Below, piece after piece: positions 52,478-62,768 of a stretch of DNA of 64,000 nt (the first letter of the stretch is position 1; the number at the start of each line of letters is the position of its first letter). Position numbers and translations under genes: made by a program. The DNA comes from Desulfosporosinus acidiphilus SJ4 (lineage in GTDB: Bacteria; Bacillota; Desulfitobacteriia; Desulfitobacteriales; Desulfitobacteriaceae): positions 2,079,977 through 2,143,976 of the forward strand of contig NC_018068.1 in assembly GCF_000255115.2 (NCBI RefSeq). Direction: 5' to 3'. The notes under the pieces were generated by a model. The model did not search any database and was not told where the DNA came from. It saw only the letters and a list, made by a program, of their open reading frames with translations.

Positions 52478-52790
52478 AGCAACAATCAGATCTTGATCGA
52501 AGCAACTAATTTTATGTAATATTGCTTTTTAGGGCAGACCACATGTCTGTAAAGTGGCAGCGCCAGTTTATGGTAAGTGTCATTTACGTGGTAGTGTGAG
52601 AAAATAATAACATGTATAGGAACTGCGTAATTTCCTTATCCTCTCAAAATAGGGATAGTCACCTATATCTGCCATATTTTTTTGGATTATCATAAGATAC
52701 GAAACAAAATTTTTAAAATTTTAAGTAGGAATTCCAATAAATTTGACGAATATAACTATAGTGAGAAAAAACAAAATAGTGTAATTATAA

Positions 52791-52855
52791 CTCATATATC
52801 CTTGATAATTGGGTCGAGGGTGTCTACGAGGCAACCGTAATTGCTTCTCTATGAG
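52791..52855 (+). promoter_or_regulatory. Purine riboswitch aptamer (C74 type, variant core)
   Basis: P1 CTCATA/TATGAG (52791-52796, 52850-52855); P2 CCTTGA/TCGAGG; L2 TAATTGGG; J2/3 GTGTCTAC; P3 GAGGCA/TGCTTC; L3 ACCGTAA; J3/1 is TC. The L2 GG and L3 CC needed for the loop-loop contact are present. The specificity base (position 74) is C, the guanine/hypoxanthine/xanthine class rather than adenine. The base before it is T where A is usual, and J2/3 has G where U is usual. Confidence 0.85.
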
Positions 52856-52900
52856 CCGGAATGGTTTATGGAGAAATAATTATGGTTGCTTTTTCTTTTT
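52831..52900 (+). terminator. Riboswitch expression platform: terminator built from P3
   Basis: GCAACCGTAATTGCTTCTC (52831-52849), which is mostly P3/L3 of the aptamer, pairs at 16 of 19 positions with 52871-52889, followed by TTTTTCTTTTT (52890-52900). Aptamer and terminator exclude each other, so ligand binding should allow read-through (ON switch). Confidence 0.8.
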
Positions 52901-52941: not shown

Positions 52942-53784
52942 ATGAAGTATTATCGGCCGCAAAGTGTCAAAGAAGCAATAGATATAGCACATTCAGCCCA
53001 AGGAATGTTTTTGGCCGGAGGAACAGATCTTGTACTTCAAATGCAGAAAGGAAAGATCTTACCGGAAGTATTGATTGATCTTGGCAAGATCTCAGAACTC
53101 CGAGAAATTAGGGAAACAAACGAGTCCGTAGAAATTGGCAGTATGGCAACTTTCACAGATATGGGCAAAAGCGAACTTGTTGCAAAGAAGGCTTCGGCTC
53201 TCTGGTTAGCCTGCCAAACGATGGGTTCACCGCAGATTCGCAATCAGGCGACTCTTGGCGGAAATCTTGGGAACTGTTCTCCGGCAGCCGATGGTTTGCC
53301 TCCGCTCTTAGCCCTGGGGGCTGATGTTGTTTTGCTTTCCGTTGAAGGAGTGAAGCAATTGCCGCTGGCTAACTTATTAGAACAGACACCTTTGCTTTCT
53401 CCAGGTACCCTTATCGGCGGATTTAAAATCCCTAAAAGACATCAGTTTACCGGATTTGCCAAATTGGGGAGACGGGAAGCCTTAGCTATTGCTCGCTTAA
53501 GTGTCGCAGTGGCCTTAGAGCTTGAGGGTTCAAAGATTGGAAATGTTCGGGTCGCTTTAGGTGCCGTTGGAAGACGAGCGTTTCTCAGTGAGCCTCTGGC
53601 CCAGTCATTGAGTCATCAGGAGTTTAATGAATCGTGGCTGAAATTGGGGATCCGTCAAGTTCAAGGTGTTGTGCGCGAAGCCTTGGGTGAAAGAGCTTCA
53701 GCTCCTTATAAACGGGTTGCCGTGGCCGGCGTTTTTCGGGAAGCGGTTGCTTCGTTAAGGCTGCAAGGAGGGTTGGATAAATGA
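52942..53784 (+). CDS. FAD subunit of four-subunit molybdenum hydroxylase (NdhF-like)
   Basis: A 280-residue FAD-binding subunit with AGAGGGGG upstream. FAD motifs: LAGGTDLVLQMQKG (about 26-39) and IRNQATLGGNLGNCSPAADG (about 100-119). First gene after the purine riboswitch. Gene order FAD, 2Fe-2S, large Mo, small Mo is the order of ndhFSLM of nicotinate dehydrogenase of Eubacterium barkeri and of related purine hydroxylases. The riboswitch and location favour a purine substrate. Its stop overlaps the next start. Confidence 0.87.
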   Translation: MKYYRPQSVKEAIDIAHSAQGMFLAGGTDLVLQMQKGKILPEVLIDLGKISELREIRETNESVEIGSMATFTDMGKSELVAKKASALWLACQTMGSPQIRNQATLGGNLGNCSPAADGLPPLLALGADVVLLSVEGVKQLPLANLLEQTPLLSPGTLIGGFKIPKRHQFTGFAKLGRREALAIARLSVAVALELEGSKIGNVRVALGAVGRRAFLSEPLAQSLSHQEFNESWLKLGIRQVQGVVREALGERASAPYKRVAVAGVFREAVASLRLQGGLDK

Positions 53785-54245
53785 TGACTATCGAATTGAT
53801 CGTAAATGATAAAAAGTACGTTTTAGAGGTGGACCCGCAAGAACGATTGCTGGATGTACTGCGTAATCGCTTAGGTTTGATGGGAACAAAAGAAGGATGC
53901 GGAGAAGGAGAATGTGGAGCCTGCACCGTGATTTTAGACGGAAAAACCGTCAACGCCTGTCTCGTGCTGGCAGGGCAGGCACAAAACTCTGCGATTACAA
54001 CCATTGAAGGCGTTGGGAATCGGCAAAAACCTCATCCTGTTCAGAAAGCTTTTGTAGAAGTTGGGGCAGTACAATGTGGTTTTTGTACTCCGGGGATGGT
54101 TCTCTCCGCTAAAAATTTACTGGATAAGAATCCTCATCCCAGCGATGAGGAAATTGGAGTGGCTTTATCGGGAAACCTCTGCCGCTGTACGGGCTATGAT
54201 AAGATTCTGCGTGCCGTCAAGCGGGCTGCCGAGGAGGAAAAATAA
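53781..54245 (+). CDS. 2Fe-2S subunit of four-subunit molybdenum hydroxylase (NdhS-like)
   Basis: A 154-residue protein with both 2Fe-2S cluster motifs complete: GCGEGECGACTVIL (about 40-53) and CGFCTPGM..CRCTGYDK (about 99 and 137). Length is normal for the small subunit. It overlaps the FAD gene by ATGA and the next gene by TAATG, so the operon is translationally coupled. It links the Mo centre to the FAD subunit. Confidence 0.92.
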   Translation: MMTIELIVNDKKYVLEVDPQERLLDVLRNRLGLMGTKEGCGEGECGACTVILDGKTVNACLVLAGQAQNSAITTIEGVGNRQKPHPVQKAFVEVGAVQCGFCTPGMVLSAKNLLDKNPHPSDEEIGVALSGNLCRCTGYDKILRAVKRAAEEEK

Positions 54246-55510
54246 TGAAAACTGAAGTAGTAGGGTCTCGTGTCCTGAGGGAAGATTCTTGGGGAAAGGT
54301 TTTTGGTCAAACAAAGTTTCCGGCCGATGTCAATCTTCCTAATCAATTATACGGGGTTGTTCTGCGCAGTCCTCATCCTCATGCTCGGGTTCTGAATATT
54401 AACAGCGAAGAAGCTAAGAAGATCGCAGGTGTTGTGACAGTCCTGACCGCTAAAGATGTACCTCATAATTCACATGGCGTTCTGTTCCGTGATCAGCCGG
54501 TCATCGCCGACTATGTACGCATGGTGGGGGACCCGGTGGCCGTTGTGGGAGCCGAAACCATGGAGATAGCCCGCCAAGCCGCGGAGCGAATACAGGTGAA
54601 CTATGAAATTCTGCCGGCCATTTTTGAACCCGAAGAGGCCATGAAGCCAGAGGTTCCGCCTTTGCACCCGGAACTTCAGCCTACAAATATCCTGTACCAC
54701 CTGCCCATTCGCAGGGGATCGATGGAGGAAGGCTGGGCTAAAGCGGATGTTGTGGTCGAACAAGTTTATAAGACACAGCATGTAGATCATGCTTTTTTGC
54801 AGCCAGAAGCTGTTCTCGCTTATTTGGATGAACGGGGGCATATGGTGGTTCAAACTGCAACTCAATATGCTCACTATGATCGAGGGGAAATTGCTCATGC
54901 CCTGGGGTTTCGCTACAGTCAAGTTCAAGTGAAGACTTTGGCAGTTGGCGGTGCTTTCGGCGGGCGAGAAGATATCTCTCTGCAAATTATAGCGGCCTTA
55001 CTGGCCTTGAAGACCCAGAGGCCCGTCAAAATGGAGAATACAAGGGAAGAGTCTTTTTATTCCCACAGCAAACGTCATCCAATGACTATGTATTACAAGA
55101 CTGGAGCTGCGAAGGATGGCAAGCTTGTAGCCATGCAGGCCAAGATCATAGGTGATGCAGGAGCCTATGCTTCATGGAGTGTCAATGTTTTGCGCAAATC
55201 TGCTGTTCATGCCACAGGGCCCTATGAGATACCCAACGTGGAGATTGACAGTTATGCAGTTTTTACGAATAATCCTTTTACTGGAGCAATGCGGGGCTTC
55301 GGTGCAGCTCAAACGGTCTTGGCTTATGAAAGTCAAATGGATCTTCTGGCTAAGAAGTTGGGGATATCACCTTTAGAAATTCGTTTGCGCAATTGTTTCC
55401 AAGTGGGAAGTATCACGGCAACGGGACAAGAGCTGACCAGCAGTGTTCCTTTAGATCAATGTTTAGCCAAGATCGCCCCATATTTCAGAAGAGAGGTGGA
55501 AACTCCATGA
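54245..55510 (+). CDS. N-terminal part of split molybdenum subunit (NdhL-like)
   Basis: A 421-residue protein covering the first half of a Mo-binding subunit: hammerhead domain (SWGKVFGQTKFPADVNLPNQLYG), GGAFGGREDIS (about 234) and GAMRGFGAAQ (about 348), ending after a CFQVGSITATGQEL block typical of the family. The second half follows as a separate gene with ATGA overlap and its own ribosome-binding site. The 46-kDa/36-kDa split matches the NdhL/NdhM division of nicotinate dehydrogenase, so it is a true two-subunit arrangement rather than a frameshift. Confidence 0.88.
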   Translation: MKTEVVGSRVLREDSWGKVFGQTKFPADVNLPNQLYGVVLRSPHPHARVLNINSEEAKKIAGVVTVLTAKDVPHNSHGVLFRDQPVIADYVRMVGDPVAVVGAETMEIARQAAERIQVNYEILPAIFEPEEAMKPEVPPLHPELQPTNILYHLPIRRGSMEEGWAKADVVVEQVYKTQHVDHAFLQPEAVLAYLDERGHMVVQTATQYAHYDRGEIAHALGFRYSQVQVKTLAVGGAFGGREDISLQIIAALLALKTQRPVKMENTREESFYSHSKRHPMTMYYKTGAAKDGKLVAMQAKIIGDAGAYASWSVNVLRKSAVHATGPYEIPNVEIDSYAVFTNNPFTGAMRGFGAAQTVLAYESQMDLLAKKLGISPLEIRLRNCFQVGSITATGQELTSSVPLDQCLAKIAPYFRREVETP

Positions 55511-56508
55511 AAAAACGGGGAATAGGTTTGGGTTGTGCCTGGTATGGAACTGGGTATGGCAATGGTTTTCCGGATGTTTCGAGTGCTTTTGTGGAAATTC
55601 ATGACGATGGTTCGGCAACGGTTTTGACCGGGGCCGTGGATGTGGGACAGGGAAGCAGTTCGATTTTTGCCCAAATTGCTGCCGAAGAATTGGGGCTTAG
55701 GGCAGAGGATATTTGTGTTAATACGGCTGATACAGATGTAACTCCCGATTCGGGAACTTCTGCCGCAACCCGCCAAACTTACAATACCGGCAACGCAGTT
55801 CTTAAAGCAGTGCGGCAAGCTAAATCTCGTTTGCTGACCTACGCTGCCCGTGAGTTTTCCTGCCCGACAGCAGAGGGCATTGAGCTTAAGTCAGGATATA
55901 TTGGAGTCAAGGGTGATCCGTTCCGGCGGATGCCTCTGGAAGACATGGTTTTTAAAGCTCGTTTGAATGGGGAGCGCTTTATCAGCGCGGAAAGTTCTAC
56001 AGCCCGTTCGACTCCCGTGGATCTCACCACCGGGCAGGGAGCTCCTTACTGGCCTTATTCCTTTGGTTGTCAAGCTGCAGAGGTAGAAGTGGATACGGAA
56101 ACAGGCAAAGTGAAAGTTCTCAAAGTTATTGCCGTTCATGATGTGGGGAAGGCTTTAAATCCCTCACAAGTCGAGGGGCAAATAGCAGGGGGAGTGACCC
56201 AGGGGATCGGCTATGCTCTGCTGGAAGAACTTGAACTGCAAAAAGGAACGATTAAGAACCCGGCATTTTCCAGTTATTTGATTCCCACAGCACTCGATGT
56301 GCCTAATATAGAAGCATTTTTTATCGAAGAAGCTGAGGACAGCGGCCCTTATGGCGCCAAGGGTCTCGGTGAACCAGCGATGCTTCCAACGGTTGCTGCC
56401 GTCATCAATGCCATTGATGACGCTGTGGGGGTAAGAATCACCTCGTTGCCGGCAACACCGGAAAAAATACTGCAGGCATTAGCAGAGAAAAAGGAGGAAT
56501 TGGGGTAA
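55507..56508 (+). CDS. C-terminal part of split molybdenum subunit (NdhM-like)
   Basis: A 333-residue protein from ATG 55507, which shares ATGA with the previous stop and has GAGAGGTGG upstream. An open frame continues upstream to 55393 but that part has no homologous features. It holds the second half of the Mo domain: VDVGQGSSSIFAQIAAEELG (about 44), DTDVTPDSGTSAATRQTY, HDVGKALNPSQVEGQI and GPYGAKGLGEPAM with the catalytic Glu (about 287). It must assemble with the NdhL-like chain to form the active site. Confidence 0.88.
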   Translation: MKKRGIGLGCAWYGTGYGNGFPDVSSAFVEIHDDGSATVLTGAVDVGQGSSSIFAQIAAEELGLRAEDICVNTADTDVTPDSGTSAATRQTYNTGNAVLKAVRQAKSRLLTYAAREFSCPTAEGIELKSGYIGVKGDPFRRMPLEDMVFKARLNGERFISAESSTARSTPVDLTTGQGAPYWPYSFGCQAAEVEVDTETGKVKVLKVIAVHDVGKALNPSQVEGQIAGGVTQGIGYALLEELELQKGTIKNPAFSSYLIPTALDVPNIEAFFIEEAEDSGPYGAKGLGEPAMLPTVAAVINAIDDAVGVRITSLPATPEKILQALAEKKEELG

Positions 56509-56598: not shown

Positions 56599-57960
56599 AT
56601 GTCAAGCGTGTCAAAAAATTCTCCGCCTACGGCCGGTCAAGGCTTTCTCGATGGCTTTTTTCATCTCTCCGAATTGGGTACCAATGTAAGGACCGAAATT
56701 CTCGCAGGAGTGACAACCTTTGTCACTATGGCCTATATCTTGTTCGTTAATCCCAATATTTTAAAAGACGCGGGAATGCCCATGAATGCGACCTTTGCAG
56801 CGACTGCGATCGCCGCTGCAGTAGCAACCTTAATTATGGGTGTGTATGCTAACTATCCTATTGCCATGGCTCCCGGGATGGGTCTTAATGCCTTCTTTAC
56901 CTATTCCGTGGTCATCGGTATGAAACTTCCCTGGCAAACTGCTCTCGGGGCGGTGTTTATTTCCGGATTTATCTTCTTTCTCTTAACGGTCACCAGAGTT
57001 CGGGAATGGATTATGGAAGGAGTTCCCACAGTTTTACGCCTCTCTATTGGCGTCGGTATTGGACTGTTTATTGCATTTATTGGCTTGCAAGATGGCGGCC
57101 TTGTGGTAGCGAATAAAGATACTCTTGTTCAATTAGGCAATATGAAGTCTCCTAGTGTCATTGTGACAGTATTTGGGTTAATTGTGACCGGATTTTTTAT
57201 GGCTAAACGAATTAAAGGCGGTCTATTGTTCGGAATTCTCCTGACAACAATTTTCAGTATGTTTATGGGCATTAAGCAGTTCCCAACGGGTGTATCGAGT
57301 TTTGTTGCCTTCTCCAATCCTTTCCATGCTGTAGCACCGGTTATGGGGAAACTTGACATTATGGGTGTCTTTAATTATGGTTTAATCTCGATTCTCTTTG
57401 CCTTCACCTTTGTTGATCTGTTTGACAATATTGGAACACTATTGGGAATTTCTCGCAAAGCCGGTCTTTTGGATGAAAAAGGAAATCTGCCAAGAGTCGG
57501 CAGAGCATTAATGTCCGATTCGATTGGTACGATGTTTGGTTCCATCATGGGTACTCCAACGGTAACGTCCTACATTGAAAGTACAGCTGGCGTAGCTGAG
57601 GGCGGAAAAAGCGGTTTAACCGCAGTGACCGTTGCAGTTCTTTTCATTTTTTCGATCATTTTTGCTCCCCTTGTTGGCTTAATCCCAGGGCAAGCGACGG
57701 CACCTGTTCTTATTATTGTAGGTGTTTTAATGATGAGCGAAGTAGTTCATATTAATTTTGAAGATTTTACGGAAGCATTTCCGGCCTTTATCACCATCGT
57801 TATGATGCCCTTAACTTATTCTATTGCCCAGGGTTTGGCCTTTGGCTTCATGTCTTATACAATTATTAAATTAGTTACTGGAAGACACAAAGAGAATAAT
57901 GCCGTTACCTATATTTTGACCATCTTATTCATTGTTCACTTTGTCCTTGGCGGGGGCTAA
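56599..57960 (+). CDS. AzgA/PbuG-type adenine/guanine/hypoxanthine permease
   Basis: A 453-residue NCS2 permease of the AzgA subgroup, with AGGGAGGG upstream. Marks: GVTTFVTMAYILFVNPNIL (TM1), AMAPGMGLNAFFTYSVV (TM3), FVDLFDNIGTLLGISRKAGL (TM8 with the key Asp), MGTPTVTSYIESTAGVAEGGKSGLTAV (TM10 motif with Glu), and about 12-14 membrane segments. This group takes up adenine, guanine and hypoxanthine. Together with the XanP-like permease and the deaminases it extends the range of purines that enter the pathway. Confidence 0.9.
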   Translation: MSSVSKNSPPTAGQGFLDGFFHLSELGTNVRTEILAGVTTFVTMAYILFVNPNILKDAGMPMNATFAATAIAAAVATLIMGVYANYPIAMAPGMGLNAFFTYSVVIGMKLPWQTALGAVFISGFIFFLLTVTRVREWIMEGVPTVLRLSIGVGIGLFIAFIGLQDGGLVVANKDTLVQLGNMKSPSVIVTVFGLIVTGFFMAKRIKGGLLFGILLTTIFSMFMGIKQFPTGVSSFVAFSNPFHAVAPVMGKLDIMGVFNYGLISILFAFTFVDLFDNIGTLLGISRKAGLLDEKGNLPRVGRALMSDSIGTMFGSIMGTPTVTSYIESTAGVAEGGKSGLTAVTVAVLFIFSIIFAPLVGLIPGQATAPVLIIVGVLMMSEVVHINFEDFTEAFPAFITIVMMPLTYSIAQGLAFGFMSYTIIKLVTGRHKENNAVTYILTILFIVHFVLGGG

Positions 57961-58013: not shown

Positions 58014-58073
58014 CGATTCCAGGTTTTTTGAGGAAATAATTCTCTTCGGATGAGGAGAAAGGTGGAATTTAGC

Positions 58074-59405
58074 ATGCGTGTACTATTTAAAAACGCGACC
58101 ATTGTGACCATGAATGCTCAGCGTGATGTGATCAAGGGCGATCTGTTAGTCGATGGCTCAAGGATTGCAGCGGTGGGGGAGGTTAAGGAGTCTTCTGCCG
58201 ATCAAGTGTTTGATCTGAACGGTGACTTGCTCATTCCCGGCTTGATTCAAACTCATATCCATCTTTGTCAGACCTTGTTTCGGGGTCAGGCTGATGATTT
58301 GGAACTTTTGGACTGGCTGAAATTAAGAATATGGCCTTTAGAAGGCGGACACGATCCTGAATCCATCTATGATTCCGCATTGCTTGGTATTGGAGAACTC
58401 TTTTTAGGTGGAACGACAACAATCGTAGATATGGAAACAGTGCATCATACAGAACATGCTTTCAAAGCTATATTGTCCAGCGGAATGAGAGCACTGGCCG
58501 GGAAAGTCATGATGGATGATCCCAGCGGAGATGTGCCTCTTTCCTTGCAGGAAACCACAGAGGCTTCTTTACAAGAAAGTGTGGACTTATTTGAGAAATT
58601 TAACGGGCAAGGAAACGGACGATTAGAAGTAGCTTTTACACCTCGCTTTGTCATTTCTTGTACCGATACCTTATTAAAGGAAGTATCGCGTCTGGCAAGA
58701 GAAAAGAAGGCTTTTGTGCATACCCATGCTTCTGAAAACCGAGGCGAAATTCAAGTTGTGGAAAGTACCCGGGGAATGCGCAATGTCGTCTATTTAGATA
58801 AGGTCGGCTTAACAGGCCCGAAGTTAATTCTCGCTCACTGCATCTGGCTGGATGAGACCGAAAAGGATATTCTGGTTCGGACTAAAACGCGGATTTCCCA
58901 TTGTCCATCATCGAATCTGAAGCTGGCTTCGGGGATAGCCGCCATTACCGAGCTCTTGGGGCGAGGTGCCGAAGTCTCCCTCAGTTCTGATGGAGCACCC
59001 TGCAGTAATAATCTGGATGGTTTCCGGGAAATGCGTCACGCGGCTCTCATCCAAAAACCTTTACATGGCCCAACTGCCATGCCGGCCCAAAAAGTATTTG
59101 AACTTGCAACCATCGCCGGAGCACGTGCTTTGGGACGCGAAGCAGATCTTGGGAGCCTGGAAGCCGGTAAAAAGGCAGATTTAGCCGTTGTAAGCCTTCA
59201 GGGATTACACACCTGGCCCAACCAACATGTGGACGTATACTCTCAGTTGGTTTATCAGGCTTATCCCTCTGATGTCCGCCTTACTATGGTTGATGGGCAA
59301 ATTGTCATGAGAGATCGCAAGTTGCTGACCATCGACGTTCCCGAACTTAAAAAACGTTCGACTCAAAGCTTGAATCGTGTTATGAAACGGGTAGGAATGA
59401 TTTAA
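58074..59405 (+). CDS. Amidohydrolase, purine deaminase-like (MtaD/TrzN/guanine-deaminase group)
   Basis: A 443-residue enzyme from ATG 58074 (AAAGGTGG upstream; the frame extends eight codons further). Metal motifs: PGLIQTHIHLCQTLFRGQADD (about 60-80), VHTHASEN (about 220), LAHCIWLDE (about 258), SLSSDGAPCSNNLDGF (about 304). This subgroup includes 8-oxoguanine, 5'-deoxyadenosine and guanine deaminases. Placement between a guanine/adenine permease and adenine deaminase suggests guanine or 8-oxopurine deamination, but the substrate cannot be fixed. It is a distant paralogue of SsnA at 33692. Confidence 0.8.
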   Translation: MRVLFKNATIVTMNAQRDVIKGDLLVDGSRIAAVGEVKESSADQVFDLNGDLLIPGLIQTHIHLCQTLFRGQADDLELLDWLKLRIWPLEGGHDPESIYDSALLGIGELFLGGTTTIVDMETVHHTEHAFKAILSSGMRALAGKVMMDDPSGDVPLSLQETTEASLQESVDLFEKFNGQGNGRLEVAFTPRFVISCTDTLLKEVSRLAREKKAFVHTHASENRGEIQVVESTRGMRNVVYLDKVGLTGPKLILAHCIWLDETEKDILVRTKTRISHCPSSNLKLASGIAAITELLGRGAEVSLSSDGAPCSNNLDGFREMRHAALIQKPLHGPTAMPAQKVFELATIAGARALGREADLGSLEAGKKADLAVVSLQGLHTWPNQHVDVYSQLVYQAYPSDVRLTMVDGQIVMRDRKLLTIDVPELKKRSTQSLNRVMKRVGMI

Positions 59406-59473: not shown

Positions 59474-61198
59474 ATGTCTAACTTTAGGCAAAGAATGGAT
59501 GAATCGAGAGGACTTGCACGTCTTGATCTTGTCCTGAAAAGAGCCAAGTTGGTCAATGTTTTCTCCGGAGAAATCCATGAGACAGATATTGGCATCCATC
59601 AGGGGCAGTTTGTGGGCATAGGAACTTTTGAGAATGCGGAAAAAGTTTTGGATTTAGACGGAAATTATATCGTTCCCGGACTCATTGACGGTCATGTTCA
59701 TATTGAAAGCTCACATCTTTGCCCGGAAGAATTTTGCTCTCTTCTTCTTTCTCACGGTGTTACGACAGCCGTTGTTGATCCCCATGAAATTGCCAATGTA
59801 TTAGGTGTTCAAGGAATTCGCTATATCTTGGATAGTATTCAGGATTTGCCTTTTAATGGTTTTGTTGCTCTGCCTTCTTGTGTTCCGGCAACGGAATTGG
59901 AAACTTCCGGGGCCCGTCTCAGGGCGGCTGATCTCAAGGGATTTCTAGATCATCCAAACGTCATCGGACTTGGGGAAGTCATGGATTATCCGGGAGTTTT
60001 GGCGGCTAAGGCAGAGATGGTGGAAAAGCTAGAACTCCCGGTGAGGTTTAAAGATGGTCATGCTCCCGGAATATCTCCTCAGGATCTTAATGCCTATTAC
60101 CGGGCGGGAATTCATACGGAACATGAGTGTTCTACGGTTGAAGAGGTCAGAGAAAGGCTCCGCAGGGGTTTTTATGTCATGTTAAGAGAAGGGAGCGCTG
60201 CTAATAATCTGCGGGATCTGTTACCAGCGGTTACCCCCGAAAACTCAAGTCAATGTCTGCTTGTCACCGATGACCGGCATCCGAGAGACTTAATTCAGGA
60301 AGGTTCCATCGACCATCTGGTTCGCTTGGCAATCCAAGAGGGTGTGAACCCAATTAGGGTTATCCAGATGGCTACCATTAATACTGCGCGCGCCATCGGG
60401 CTCTTAGGACTTGGAGCAGTGGCACCAGGATATCAAGCAGATTTTGTGATCCTCAAAGATCTTAACCGTTTTGAGATCGAGGAAGTATACTGGCGGGGGA
60501 AACGTCTAAGCTGCCGAGGTGAACGCCCTCATTTTCCCAAGTCAAGCATTATGGGAATGACGGAAAGTGTACATCTAGAGAATAGGTCCCCCAACAGACT
60601 GAAGTTGAATATAACGAGTGCTGGAGCTCTCTCTGCAAGAATGCGTGTCATTGGTGTCCAGGGACATTCGCTGGTCACCTCAGAAATTATTCGAGAATTG
60701 CCCGTCGTTAATCATTGTGTAGTGGCTGATCCTGCTCAAAAAATAGCCAAAATCGCGGTTCTTGAGCGTCACCATAAGACTGGAAATGTCGGCGTAGGTT
60801 TTGTGGAAGGATTAGGTTTGACAAAAGGAGCCATCGCTTCTACGGTGGCCCACGATTCCCACAATCTTGTGGTCGTGGGAATGAGTGATGAGGAGATGAA
60901 TCTGGCCATTGATACTTGTGCCGAAATGGGAGGCGGGCTTTGCCTGGTACGTGGAGATCAAGTGCTTGGTAAGCTGCCATTACCCATTGCCGGACTGATG
61001 TCCAATCTGGATGCCGAGTTAATTGCTCAGACTCTCAGTGAAATTCATGCTCAAGCCCGAAATTTAGGAATTTATGAAACCATTGATCCTTTTATGACCC
61101 TAGCCTTTCTATCTCTCCCTGTAATACCAGAAATTAAACTCACTGATTTAGGGTTAGTTGACGTGTCAAAGTTTCAATTGACAAACGTTATTCTGTAA
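59474..61198 (+). CDS. ade: Adenine deaminase
   Basis: A 574-residue protein with AAAGGAGGGG upstream. It has the AdeC/Ade layout: PGLIDGHVHIESSHLCPEEF (about 72-91), DPHEIANVLG, HTEHECSTVEEVRERLRRGFYVMLREGSA, TDDRHPRDL, and a C-terminal domain with VAHDSHNLVVVGMSDEEM. The enzyme converts adenine to hypoxanthine and ammonia, feeding the molybdenum hydroxylases. Length is normal. It ends at the strong terminator at 61232 and probably shares a transcript with the previous amidohydrolase. Confidence 0.93.
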   Translation: MSNFRQRMDESRGLARLDLVLKRAKLVNVFSGEIHETDIGIHQGQFVGIGTFENAEKVLDLDGNYIVPGLIDGHVHIESSHLCPEEFCSLLLSHGVTTAVVDPHEIANVLGVQGIRYILDSIQDLPFNGFVALPSCVPATELETSGARLRAADLKGFLDHPNVIGLGEVMDYPGVLAAKAEMVEKLELPVRFKDGHAPGISPQDLNAYYRAGIHTEHECSTVEEVRERLRRGFYVMLREGSAANNLRDLLPAVTPENSSQCLLVTDDRHPRDLIQEGSIDHLVRLAIQEGVNPIRVIQMATINTARAIGLLGLGAVAPGYQADFVILKDLNRFEIEEVYWRGKRLSCRGERPHFPKSSIMGMTESVHLENRSPNRLKLNITSAGALSARMRVIGVQGHSLVTSEIIRELPVVNHCVVADPAQKIAKIAVLERHHKTGNVGVGFVEGLGLTKGAIASTVAHDSHNLVVVGMSDEEMNLAIDTCAEMGGGLCLVRGDQVLGKLPLPIAGLMSNLDAELIAQTLSEIHAQARNLGIYETIDPFMTLAFLSLPVIPEIKLTDLGLVDVSKFQLTNVIL

Positions 61199-61297: not shown

Positions 61298-61400
61298 GTT
61301 GGGCGAATACGGTTATAATGGCTCATATGTAGTAGGATAGAAGGAATCCGTACATAATATGTCGAATAAACAAGTTTCACGAAAGAATGGAGGGCAGATT

Positions 61401-62768
61401 TTGAAACAAGAATCACAGAATAAAAGAGAAGGATTTTCAAGCAGTATCGGAGTCATAGCAGCAGTACTGGGTTCAGCTGTTGGACTCGGTAATATATGGA
61501 AGTTCCCTTATGTAACCGGTGCTAATGGTGGGGCAGCTTTTATTCTGGTTTATTTAGTATGCCTGGCATTAGTCGGTTTGCCTGTAATGTTGTCAGAACA
61601 TCTCATAGGACGGGCAACAAAATCTAACGCAGTAGGTGCTTTTAAGAAACTACAGCCAAGACGGCCTTGGTTTTTAGTTGGTGGAGCAGGGGTAATAAGC
61701 GCCTTTTTAATTATGGCTTTCTATACCACTGTGGTCGGTTGGGTTTATGCCTATATTTTCAAATCGGCGAGTGGTGCGCTTCTAACGAATAAACCGCAGC
61801 AAACAACACAAGTCTTTAACTCTTTGATCTCAGGAGTCGCTGAACCTTTATTTTGGCAAGTGCTGGTTTTAATTGTAATCGGCATTATCATCATGGCAGG
61901 TGTTACGAAAGGAATTGAGAGAGTCACCAAATTCCTGATGCCCATGCTTTTTATTTTGCTGGTTATTATTGATATCAGGTCCTTAAGCCTGCCCGGTGCT
62001 TCTTCAGGCTTAGCGTTCTTATTTAAACCGGACTTTTCTAAGATCACTGTAAGTGCTATACTGGCTGCGTTAGGTTTGGCATTTTTTAAGCTAAGTGTCG
62101 GCATGGGAGCTATGATTACTTATGGCAGTTATGTAGACAAACAGGAAAACCTGCCAAAGATGGCAGTAAAAGTAGCACTCTCTGACACGTTAGTTTCTCT
62201 GATGGCGGGCATTGCTATTTTTCCGGCAGTATTTGCTTTTGGATTTGAACCTAAAGCCGGTCCACCCTTACTATTTATCATTATTCCGACGGTGTTCAAT
62301 TCCATGCCCTTAGGCAGAATTTTTATGGTTTTATTCTTCTTGCTGACCGCTTTTGCTGCAACCGGTGCTATGTTGTCTCTCTTGGAAGTTCCGATTGCCT
62401 ACTTCACTGAGGAGTATCAATGGTCGAGGCGGAAAGCCACGCTCATAACGATTGTTGGCATAGGTTTGCTGGGTTCAACGGCTACGTTGTCTAATAGTGT
62501 GTTGTCCAATGTTTTGATATTTGGTAAAACTTTTTTCGATTTCTTCGACTTTGCAACATCGAATGTCCTCTTACCTTTGGGTGGAATCTTCATTGCCTTG
62601 TTTGCGGGTTGGCAATGGGGATATGCTAATGTGAAGCGTGAGATGACTAATGAGGGTCAATTACGCAATGAAGGCTTGTTTAAAGTCTATATAGTTTTAG
62701 TTAGATATTTAGTTCCAATTGCCATTGCTATTATTCTGTTAACTGGATTGAATATTATTCATATCTAA
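61401..62768 (+). CDS. NSS-family sodium-dependent symporter
   Basis: About 455 residues from TTG 61401 (GGAGGG upstream); the frame could also begin at ATG 61359. GVIAAVLGSAVGLGNIWKFPYVTGANGGAAF is the TM1 motif of neurotransmitter:sodium symporters (LeuT/TnaT type). There are 11-12 membrane segments, with ATGAMLSLLEVPIAYFTEE near TM8. It probably imports an amino acid with Na+; the substrate is unknown. Separated from the purine genes by the terminator at 61232, so it need not belong to the pathway. Confidence 0.87.
   Translation: MKQESQNKREGFSSSIGVIAAVLGSAVGLGNIWKFPYVTGANGGAAFILVYLVCLALVGLPVMLSEHLIGRATKSNAVGAFKKLQPRRPWFLVGGAGVISAFLIMAFYTTVVGWVYAYIFKSASGALLTNKPQQTTQVFNSLISGVAEPLFWQVLVLIVIGIIIMAGVTKGIERVTKFLMPMLFILLVIIDIRSLSLPGASSGLAFLFKPDFSKITVSAILAALGLAFFKLSVGMGAMITYGSYVDKQENLPKMAVKVALSDTLVSLMAGIAIFPAVFAFGFEPKAGPPLLFIIIPTVFNSMPLGRIFMVLFFLLTAFAATGAMLSLLEVPIAYFTEEYQWSRRKATLITIVGIGLLGSTATLSNSVLSNVLIFGKTFFDFFDFATSNVLLPLGGIFIALFAGWQWGYANVKREMTNEGQLRNEGLFKVYIVLVRYLVPIAIAIILLTGLNIIHI

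Follow-up and report, generated by a model that had tools for sequence, protein, structure and literature searches.

A guanine-type purine riboswitch with an altered core and a predicted ON layout ahead of a purine-catabolic operon in Desulfosporosinus

A purine riboswitch whose junction departs from the usual core lies before a molybdenum hydroxylase operon in Desulfosporosinus, which raises the questions of what it senses and whether ligand binding would switch the operon on or off. We analysed it within a stretch of DNA of 64,000 nucleotides (the window, to which all coordinates refer unless a locus is named). A cmscan search matched RF00167 at 52772-52871 on the + strand (65.1 bits, E 1.1e-10, gathering threshold 37) with all three helices formed, in agreement with the initial annotation, which had described a three-helix purine aptamer with C at the specificity position (C74 = 52849). 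Core positions were read directly in xpt numbering, giving the following layout.

52791-52855, + strand: purine riboswitch aptamer P1-P2-P3, guanine-type (U22, U47, U51, C74; U73, U48G, G54-C72), from RF00167, direct reading and conservation in the genus
52791-52796/52850-52855, + strand: P1, direct reading
52795-52799, + strand: J1/2, U20-A-U22-A-U24 (UAUAU), with U20 and A21 also paired in P1
52800-52806/52813-52819, + strand: P2, direct reading
52807-52812, + strand: L2, AAUUGG, direct reading
52820-52827, + strand: J2/3, GUGUCUAC, G46-U47-G48-U49-C50-U51-A52-C53, 8 nt, from the RF00167 alignment; U48G, with U47 and U51 intact
52828-52834/52841-52847, + strand: P3, direct reading
52835-52840, + strand: L3, CCGUAA, direct reading
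52848-52849, + strand: J3/1, U73 C74, 2 nt, from the RF00167 alignment and direct reading

The bases that contact the ligand are intact: U22 lies at 52797, U47 at 52821, U51 at 52825 and C74 in J3/1. The two core changes that had been reported before, J3/1 = UC (A73U) and U48G in J2/3, are both real by alignment and direct reading; position 73 is U at 52848 in place of the A that is common, if not strict, in the guanine-I class. Two further changes had been overlooked, namely that the first pair of P3 is G54-C72 as opposed to C54-G72, and that, relative to the Rfam consensus, L2 and L3 both lack one base.

The terminator and the predicted direction of the response

Folding of the sequence that follows identified an intrinsic terminator which overlaps the aptamer.

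52831-52899, + strand: intrinsic terminator, hairpin 52831-52889 followed by the U-tract 52890-52899; excludes P3 and P1

The hairpin has a folding energy of -35.7 kcal/mol (z = -9.7), and none of 200 shuffled sequences was equally stable. Since its 5' arm takes 27 of the 28 nucleotides between the start of P3 and the end of P1' (P3, J3/1 and the 3' strand of P1), the aptamer and the terminator are mutually exclusive, and an ON switch is therefore predicted. An arm drawn from P3, J3/1 and P1' is also the distinguishing feature of the pbuE-type ON switch, and we found the ON layout in every UC orthologue that was classified. The ON design put forward in the initial annotation is thus upheld by the predicted folds and is kept across the genus, and ligand binding should turn transcription on.

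In single-sequence minimum-energy folds, which favour pairing, position 73 was paired within the predicted terminator in all 32 elements of the family (U-A in 18, U-G in 8, A-U in 5 and G-C in 1), as was position 74, always as C-G, while position 54 formed G-U or C-G and position 72 mostly C-G or G-C. The terminator pairs showed compensatory changes between clades. Pairing was scored sequence by sequence because in a MAFFT alignment the terminator arm came out 1-2 columns off in the sister genera.

The mechanism and its kinetics may resemble those of pbuE, for which a toehold stem beyond P1' has been described, together with strand exchange and gating of the junction by the ligand (PMC7707468). 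Without ligand, the terminator strand would nucleate on a CC/GG stem-loop just beyond P1' and then invade P1', J3/1 and P3, and the completed terminator would halt transcription ahead of the first gene. A bound purine would instead lock the three-way junction and block strand invasion, so that the polymerase could continue into the genes for the hydroxylase, the permease and the deaminases. In pbuE, an over-stable L2-L3 contact blocks strand exchange (PMC7707468), and the shortened L2 and L3 seen here may likewise serve strand exchange.

The operon and its surroundings

The genes behind the switch, together with a putative promoter, are as follows.

52727-52751, + strand: putative sigma-H-like promoter, AGGAATT-11-GACGAAT, from reading, conservation and likeness to the sigma-H consensus
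52942-53784, + strand: first gene, molybdenum hydroxylase FAD subunit (XdhB/NdhF-like)
53781-54245, + strand: molybdenum hydroxylase 2Fe-2S subunit (XdhC/NdhS-like)
54245-55510, + strand: molybdopterin large subunit, best solved relative NdhL of nicotinate dehydrogenase (3hrd_A, E 3.7e-105)
55507-56508, + strand: molybdopterin medium subunit, best solved relative NdhM (3hrd_B, E 3.8e-89)
56599-57960, + strand: purine permease of the xanthine/uracil permease family (PF00860), AzgA/PbuG-like by inspection
58050-59405, + strand: amidohydrolase, 5'-deoxyadenosine deaminase in NCBIfam, related to 8-oxoguanine and guanine deaminases
59474-61198, + strand: adenine deaminase (TIGR01178 above cut-off)
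61359-62768, + strand: sodium-dependent (NSS-type) transporter (NF037979 above cut-off)

The molybdopterin subunit is split into two genes (54245-56508) whose start and stop overlap in ATGA, as for NdhL and NdhM of nicotinate dehydrogenase, and both parts occur in relatives across the family. The molybdenum hydroxylase operon originally proposed to be under the switch was confirmed; it is a purine-catabolic one that is conserved across the genus. Several species have lost the hydroxylase genes or keep only remnants of them, and there the switch lies directly before the permease or the deaminase (L034, L038, L041-L043, L057, L058 and L070). Since the switch is kept after loss of the hydroxylase, it tracks purine catabolism as a whole and not the hydroxylase alone.

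The promoter motif at 52727-52751 resembles the sigma-H consensus, and a similar 24-28 bp AGGR..CGAAT motif lies upstream in 20 of 32 relatives; taken in this window alone, the match does not rise above chance. A sigma-70 promoter scan of the + strand found no promoter. The operon may be under stationary-phase control.

The region upstream of the switch (27413-52477) holds a nearly complete reductive urate degradation cluster comprising ygfK, pbuX, diaminopropionate ammonia-lyase, ygeY, carbamoyltransferase, carbamate kinase, dihydropyrimidinase, selenium-dependent xanthine dehydrogenase and yqeB, with a sigma-54 regulator gene among them. The set agrees with the reductive urate pathway described in PMC12507026.

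Core variation and the probable ligand

We scanned 46 genomes of the family and inspected the loci retrieved. The UC element, at loci whose collection records bear the name Desulfosporosinus, was present in 26 of the 30 genomes of the genus; fragmented or incomplete assemblies are among the four that lack it. All 26 orthologues share U73-C74 and G54-C72, whereas U48G occurs in only four (L041, L062, L063 and L065), which rules it out as a functional signature. In sister genera (L035, L048, L056, L071 and L072) the same operon lies behind ON-type elements with A73 (J3/1 = AC) and C54-G72, and one sister-genus element (L044) carries G73. Because A73 forms the A73.(A52-U22) triple (PMC6817744) and A73 and C54-G72 enclose A24 in a stack (PMC9588036), the changes at 54, 72 and 73 fall within one layer adjoining that of the ligand, and loss of the triple could change affinity or selectivity.

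The genome of the window contains three purine riboswitches, the other two of which are canonical and score 84 and 87 bits. One element of this genome (L074, C3:1074200-1077200), with J3/1 = AC, precedes another molybdenum hydroxylase gene set, and its strong terminator well downstream of the aptamer suggests OFF control.

To place the altered core in a wider context, the genome collection was scanned for otherwise standard cores with J3/1 = UC, yielding 86 stretches, most of them true aptamers by their flanking structure. About 70 stretches, drawn from several phyla, carry A73U; among the genes behind such elements are guaA (Lysinibacillus), xpt (Pelosinus), purE and purL (Clostridium), guaB (Alkaliphilus) and permeases, with gene names assigned by inspection of N-termini. 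The elements before guaA, xpt, purE, purL and guaB mostly have downstream-only (OFF-type) terminators, some single calls being ambiguous; automatic ON/OFF sorting of all aptamers was too noisy for a rate, and none was derived. A neutral sample of the phylum (398 genomes) gave 96 aptamers, with A at position 73 in 79, G in 13 and U in 4. C54-G72 was present in 77 of the 79 A73 aptamers compared to only 7 of the 17 others (Fisher p about 1e-7, uncorrected for kinship), and in two related genomes (G425 and G296) the matched stretch differs only at position 73.

Position 73 and the 54-72 pair thus drift together in ordinary guanine switches, which is a caution for variant hunting: a change in J3/1 alone is no sign of a new ligand class. 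Judged from these alignments, A73U is drift that guanine switches tolerate, and together with C54G/G72C it is a change of this lineage to the layer stacked above the ligand; U48G is incidental. Within the genus, elements with J3/1 = UC accompany this operon or, where the hydroxylase was lost, its permease or deaminase; elsewhere they also lie before guaA, xpt, purE and guaB. A new ligand read from A73U is accordingly set aside as the default, and the initial view that the core changes may mean a different ligand is not supported, given the unchanged contact bases, the rarity of U48G, A73U before guanine-repressed genes and the AC of the sister genera.

The same scan returned UC aptamers in several other settings. 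One in Synergistaceae (L119:6003-7415) precedes a guanine deaminase-like gene and has a terminator that invades P3 in an ON layout, while another before a guanine deaminase-like gene, in a planctomycete MAG (L155:5655-7108), has a less clear ON layout. Two in Paenibacillus (L107:505-2033 and L145:2090-3628) have ON-type terminators and lie before an FAD-dependent protein. In Cytobacillus/Bacillus (L110 and L172) a UC element precedes an XdhC-like subunit and was classified as ON, yet P3 stays intact in the P3-to-tract fold. Guanine-type UC aptamers in Bdellovibrio, Oligoflexales and related MAGs (L094, L105, L113, L118, L130, L133 and L157) lie a few bases before start codons of genes for short or secreted-looking proteins, including endonuclease I (L133) and S1/P1 nuclease (L105).

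We also observed, in three genomes of the genus (L039:571-760, L040 and L047), elements with U51G, extra J3/1 bases and an ON-type terminator. They precede a different xanthine dehydrogenase, with about 32% identity to the one here, and match the published marks of xanthine-II; we regard them as xanthine-II-like elements from beyond the groups that PMC9295807 names. The genus thus does show the change that xanthine sensing would call for, but the element studied here lacks it.

Taken together, these data point to a guanine-class transcriptional ON riboswitch that probably induces the purine-catabolic operon, with guanine as its most likely ligand and hypoxanthine or xanthine as possible physiological co-ligands. 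The guanine aptamer discriminates against hypoxanthine and xanthine only about 10-fold (PMC9295807). Two points count against guanine induction: the guanine-I switches of the cited literature are OFF switches, and the genes of the operon are directed at hypoxanthine-like purines no less than at guanine. Moreover, intact contact bases are no proof of selectivity for guanine, since the C. difficile C74 switch CD2704 has been reported to respond specifically to xanthine (PMC11477304).

The fixed 54-72/73 layer and the shortened kissing loops might, with the contact bases kept, have redirected it from guanine to a catabolic purine (hypoxanthine, xanthine or a further oxopurine) by a second-shell change in specificity, which we consider unlikely. 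A shift of preference within the oxopurines, to hypoxanthine or xanthine over guanine, through the same layer and the kissing loops would fit with U73 and G54-C72 being fixed throughout the genus, with a hydroxylase and permease operon that adjoins the urate cluster, and with the xanthine-specific switch of C. difficile. It is nonetheless quite improbable: every contact base is unchanged, A73U elsewhere accompanies ordinary guanine-regulated genes, sister genera keep A73 before the same operon, and xanthine sensing in the genus would be expected of the U51G elements. We give little credence to a new ligand class (urate, 8-oxoguanine, 2,8-dioxopurine or a nucleoside), for which the neighbouring urate-degradation genes and the relationship of the operon's deaminase to 8-oxoguanine deaminase would speak, because known changes of class involve either another base in place of U51 (2'-dG, xanthine-II) or insertions in J2/3 and J3/1 (PMC9295807, PMC8872408), neither of which is found here, and A73U has no specificity for this gene context. 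Finally, a degenerate aptamer with a terminator that is constitutive or under another factor is scarcely credible. The element does score less than the canonical ones of its genome (65 bits against 84 and 87), yet 26 of 30 genomes retain its contact bases, its helices and the terminator alternatives, with compensatory changes, and it persists where the hydroxylase genes have been lost.

We therefore favour the guanine reading and regard the element, on comparative grounds, as a real and well-conserved guanine-type ON purine riboswitch, whose altered core appears to be a lineage trait that offers no good evidence of a new ligand.

Comparison with known riboswitch classes

NMT1/xanthine-I (RF03054) shares an association with purine-oxidation genes, but its fold is entirely different; RF03054 had no match in the genome of the window, and as the control genomes also gave none, its absence is not established. 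The 2'-dG-I and 2'-dG-II classes, marked by C at position 51 (PMC8872408), were rejected because U51 is present. Guanine-II (PMC9295807) likewise retains the guanine pocket and is predicted to be ON, but J2/3 here has the 8 nt of guanine-I without the one-nucleotide insertion, and guanine-II genes encode phosphoribosyltransferases. Xanthine-II, a U51G variant of the guanine riboswitch (PMC9295807), shares ON control and purine-degradation genes including xanthine dehydrogenase; it was excluded because position 51 (52825) is U and because J2/3 (8 nt) and J3/1 (2 nt) lack its insertions, that in J2/3 being of two nucleotides.

The closest mechanistic likeness is to the adenine riboswitch pbuE of B. 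subtilis, an ON switch in which a short toehold stem lets the terminator invade P1', J3/1 and P3 (PMC7707468). The adenine class itself was ruled out by the guanine-type C, not U, at position 74, and the regulated genes are different. With guanine-I (RF00167, B. subtilis xpt) the element shares the three-helix junction, the GG/CC kissing loops, U22, U47, U51, C74 and the J2/3 pattern; it differs in J3/1 (UC, not AC), in G54-C72 in place of C54-G72, in its shorter L2 and L3, in its predicted ON as opposed to OFF control, and in its catabolic operon. Judging by the independent ON-type layouts elsewhere, guanine-type ON control of purine breakdown may have evolved on more than one occasion. Guanine switches usually turn genes OFF, and a guanine-core ON switch that induces purine catabolism would invert that arrangement throughout a genus whose genomes have canonical guanine elements as well, before purE and before another molybdenum hydroxylase.
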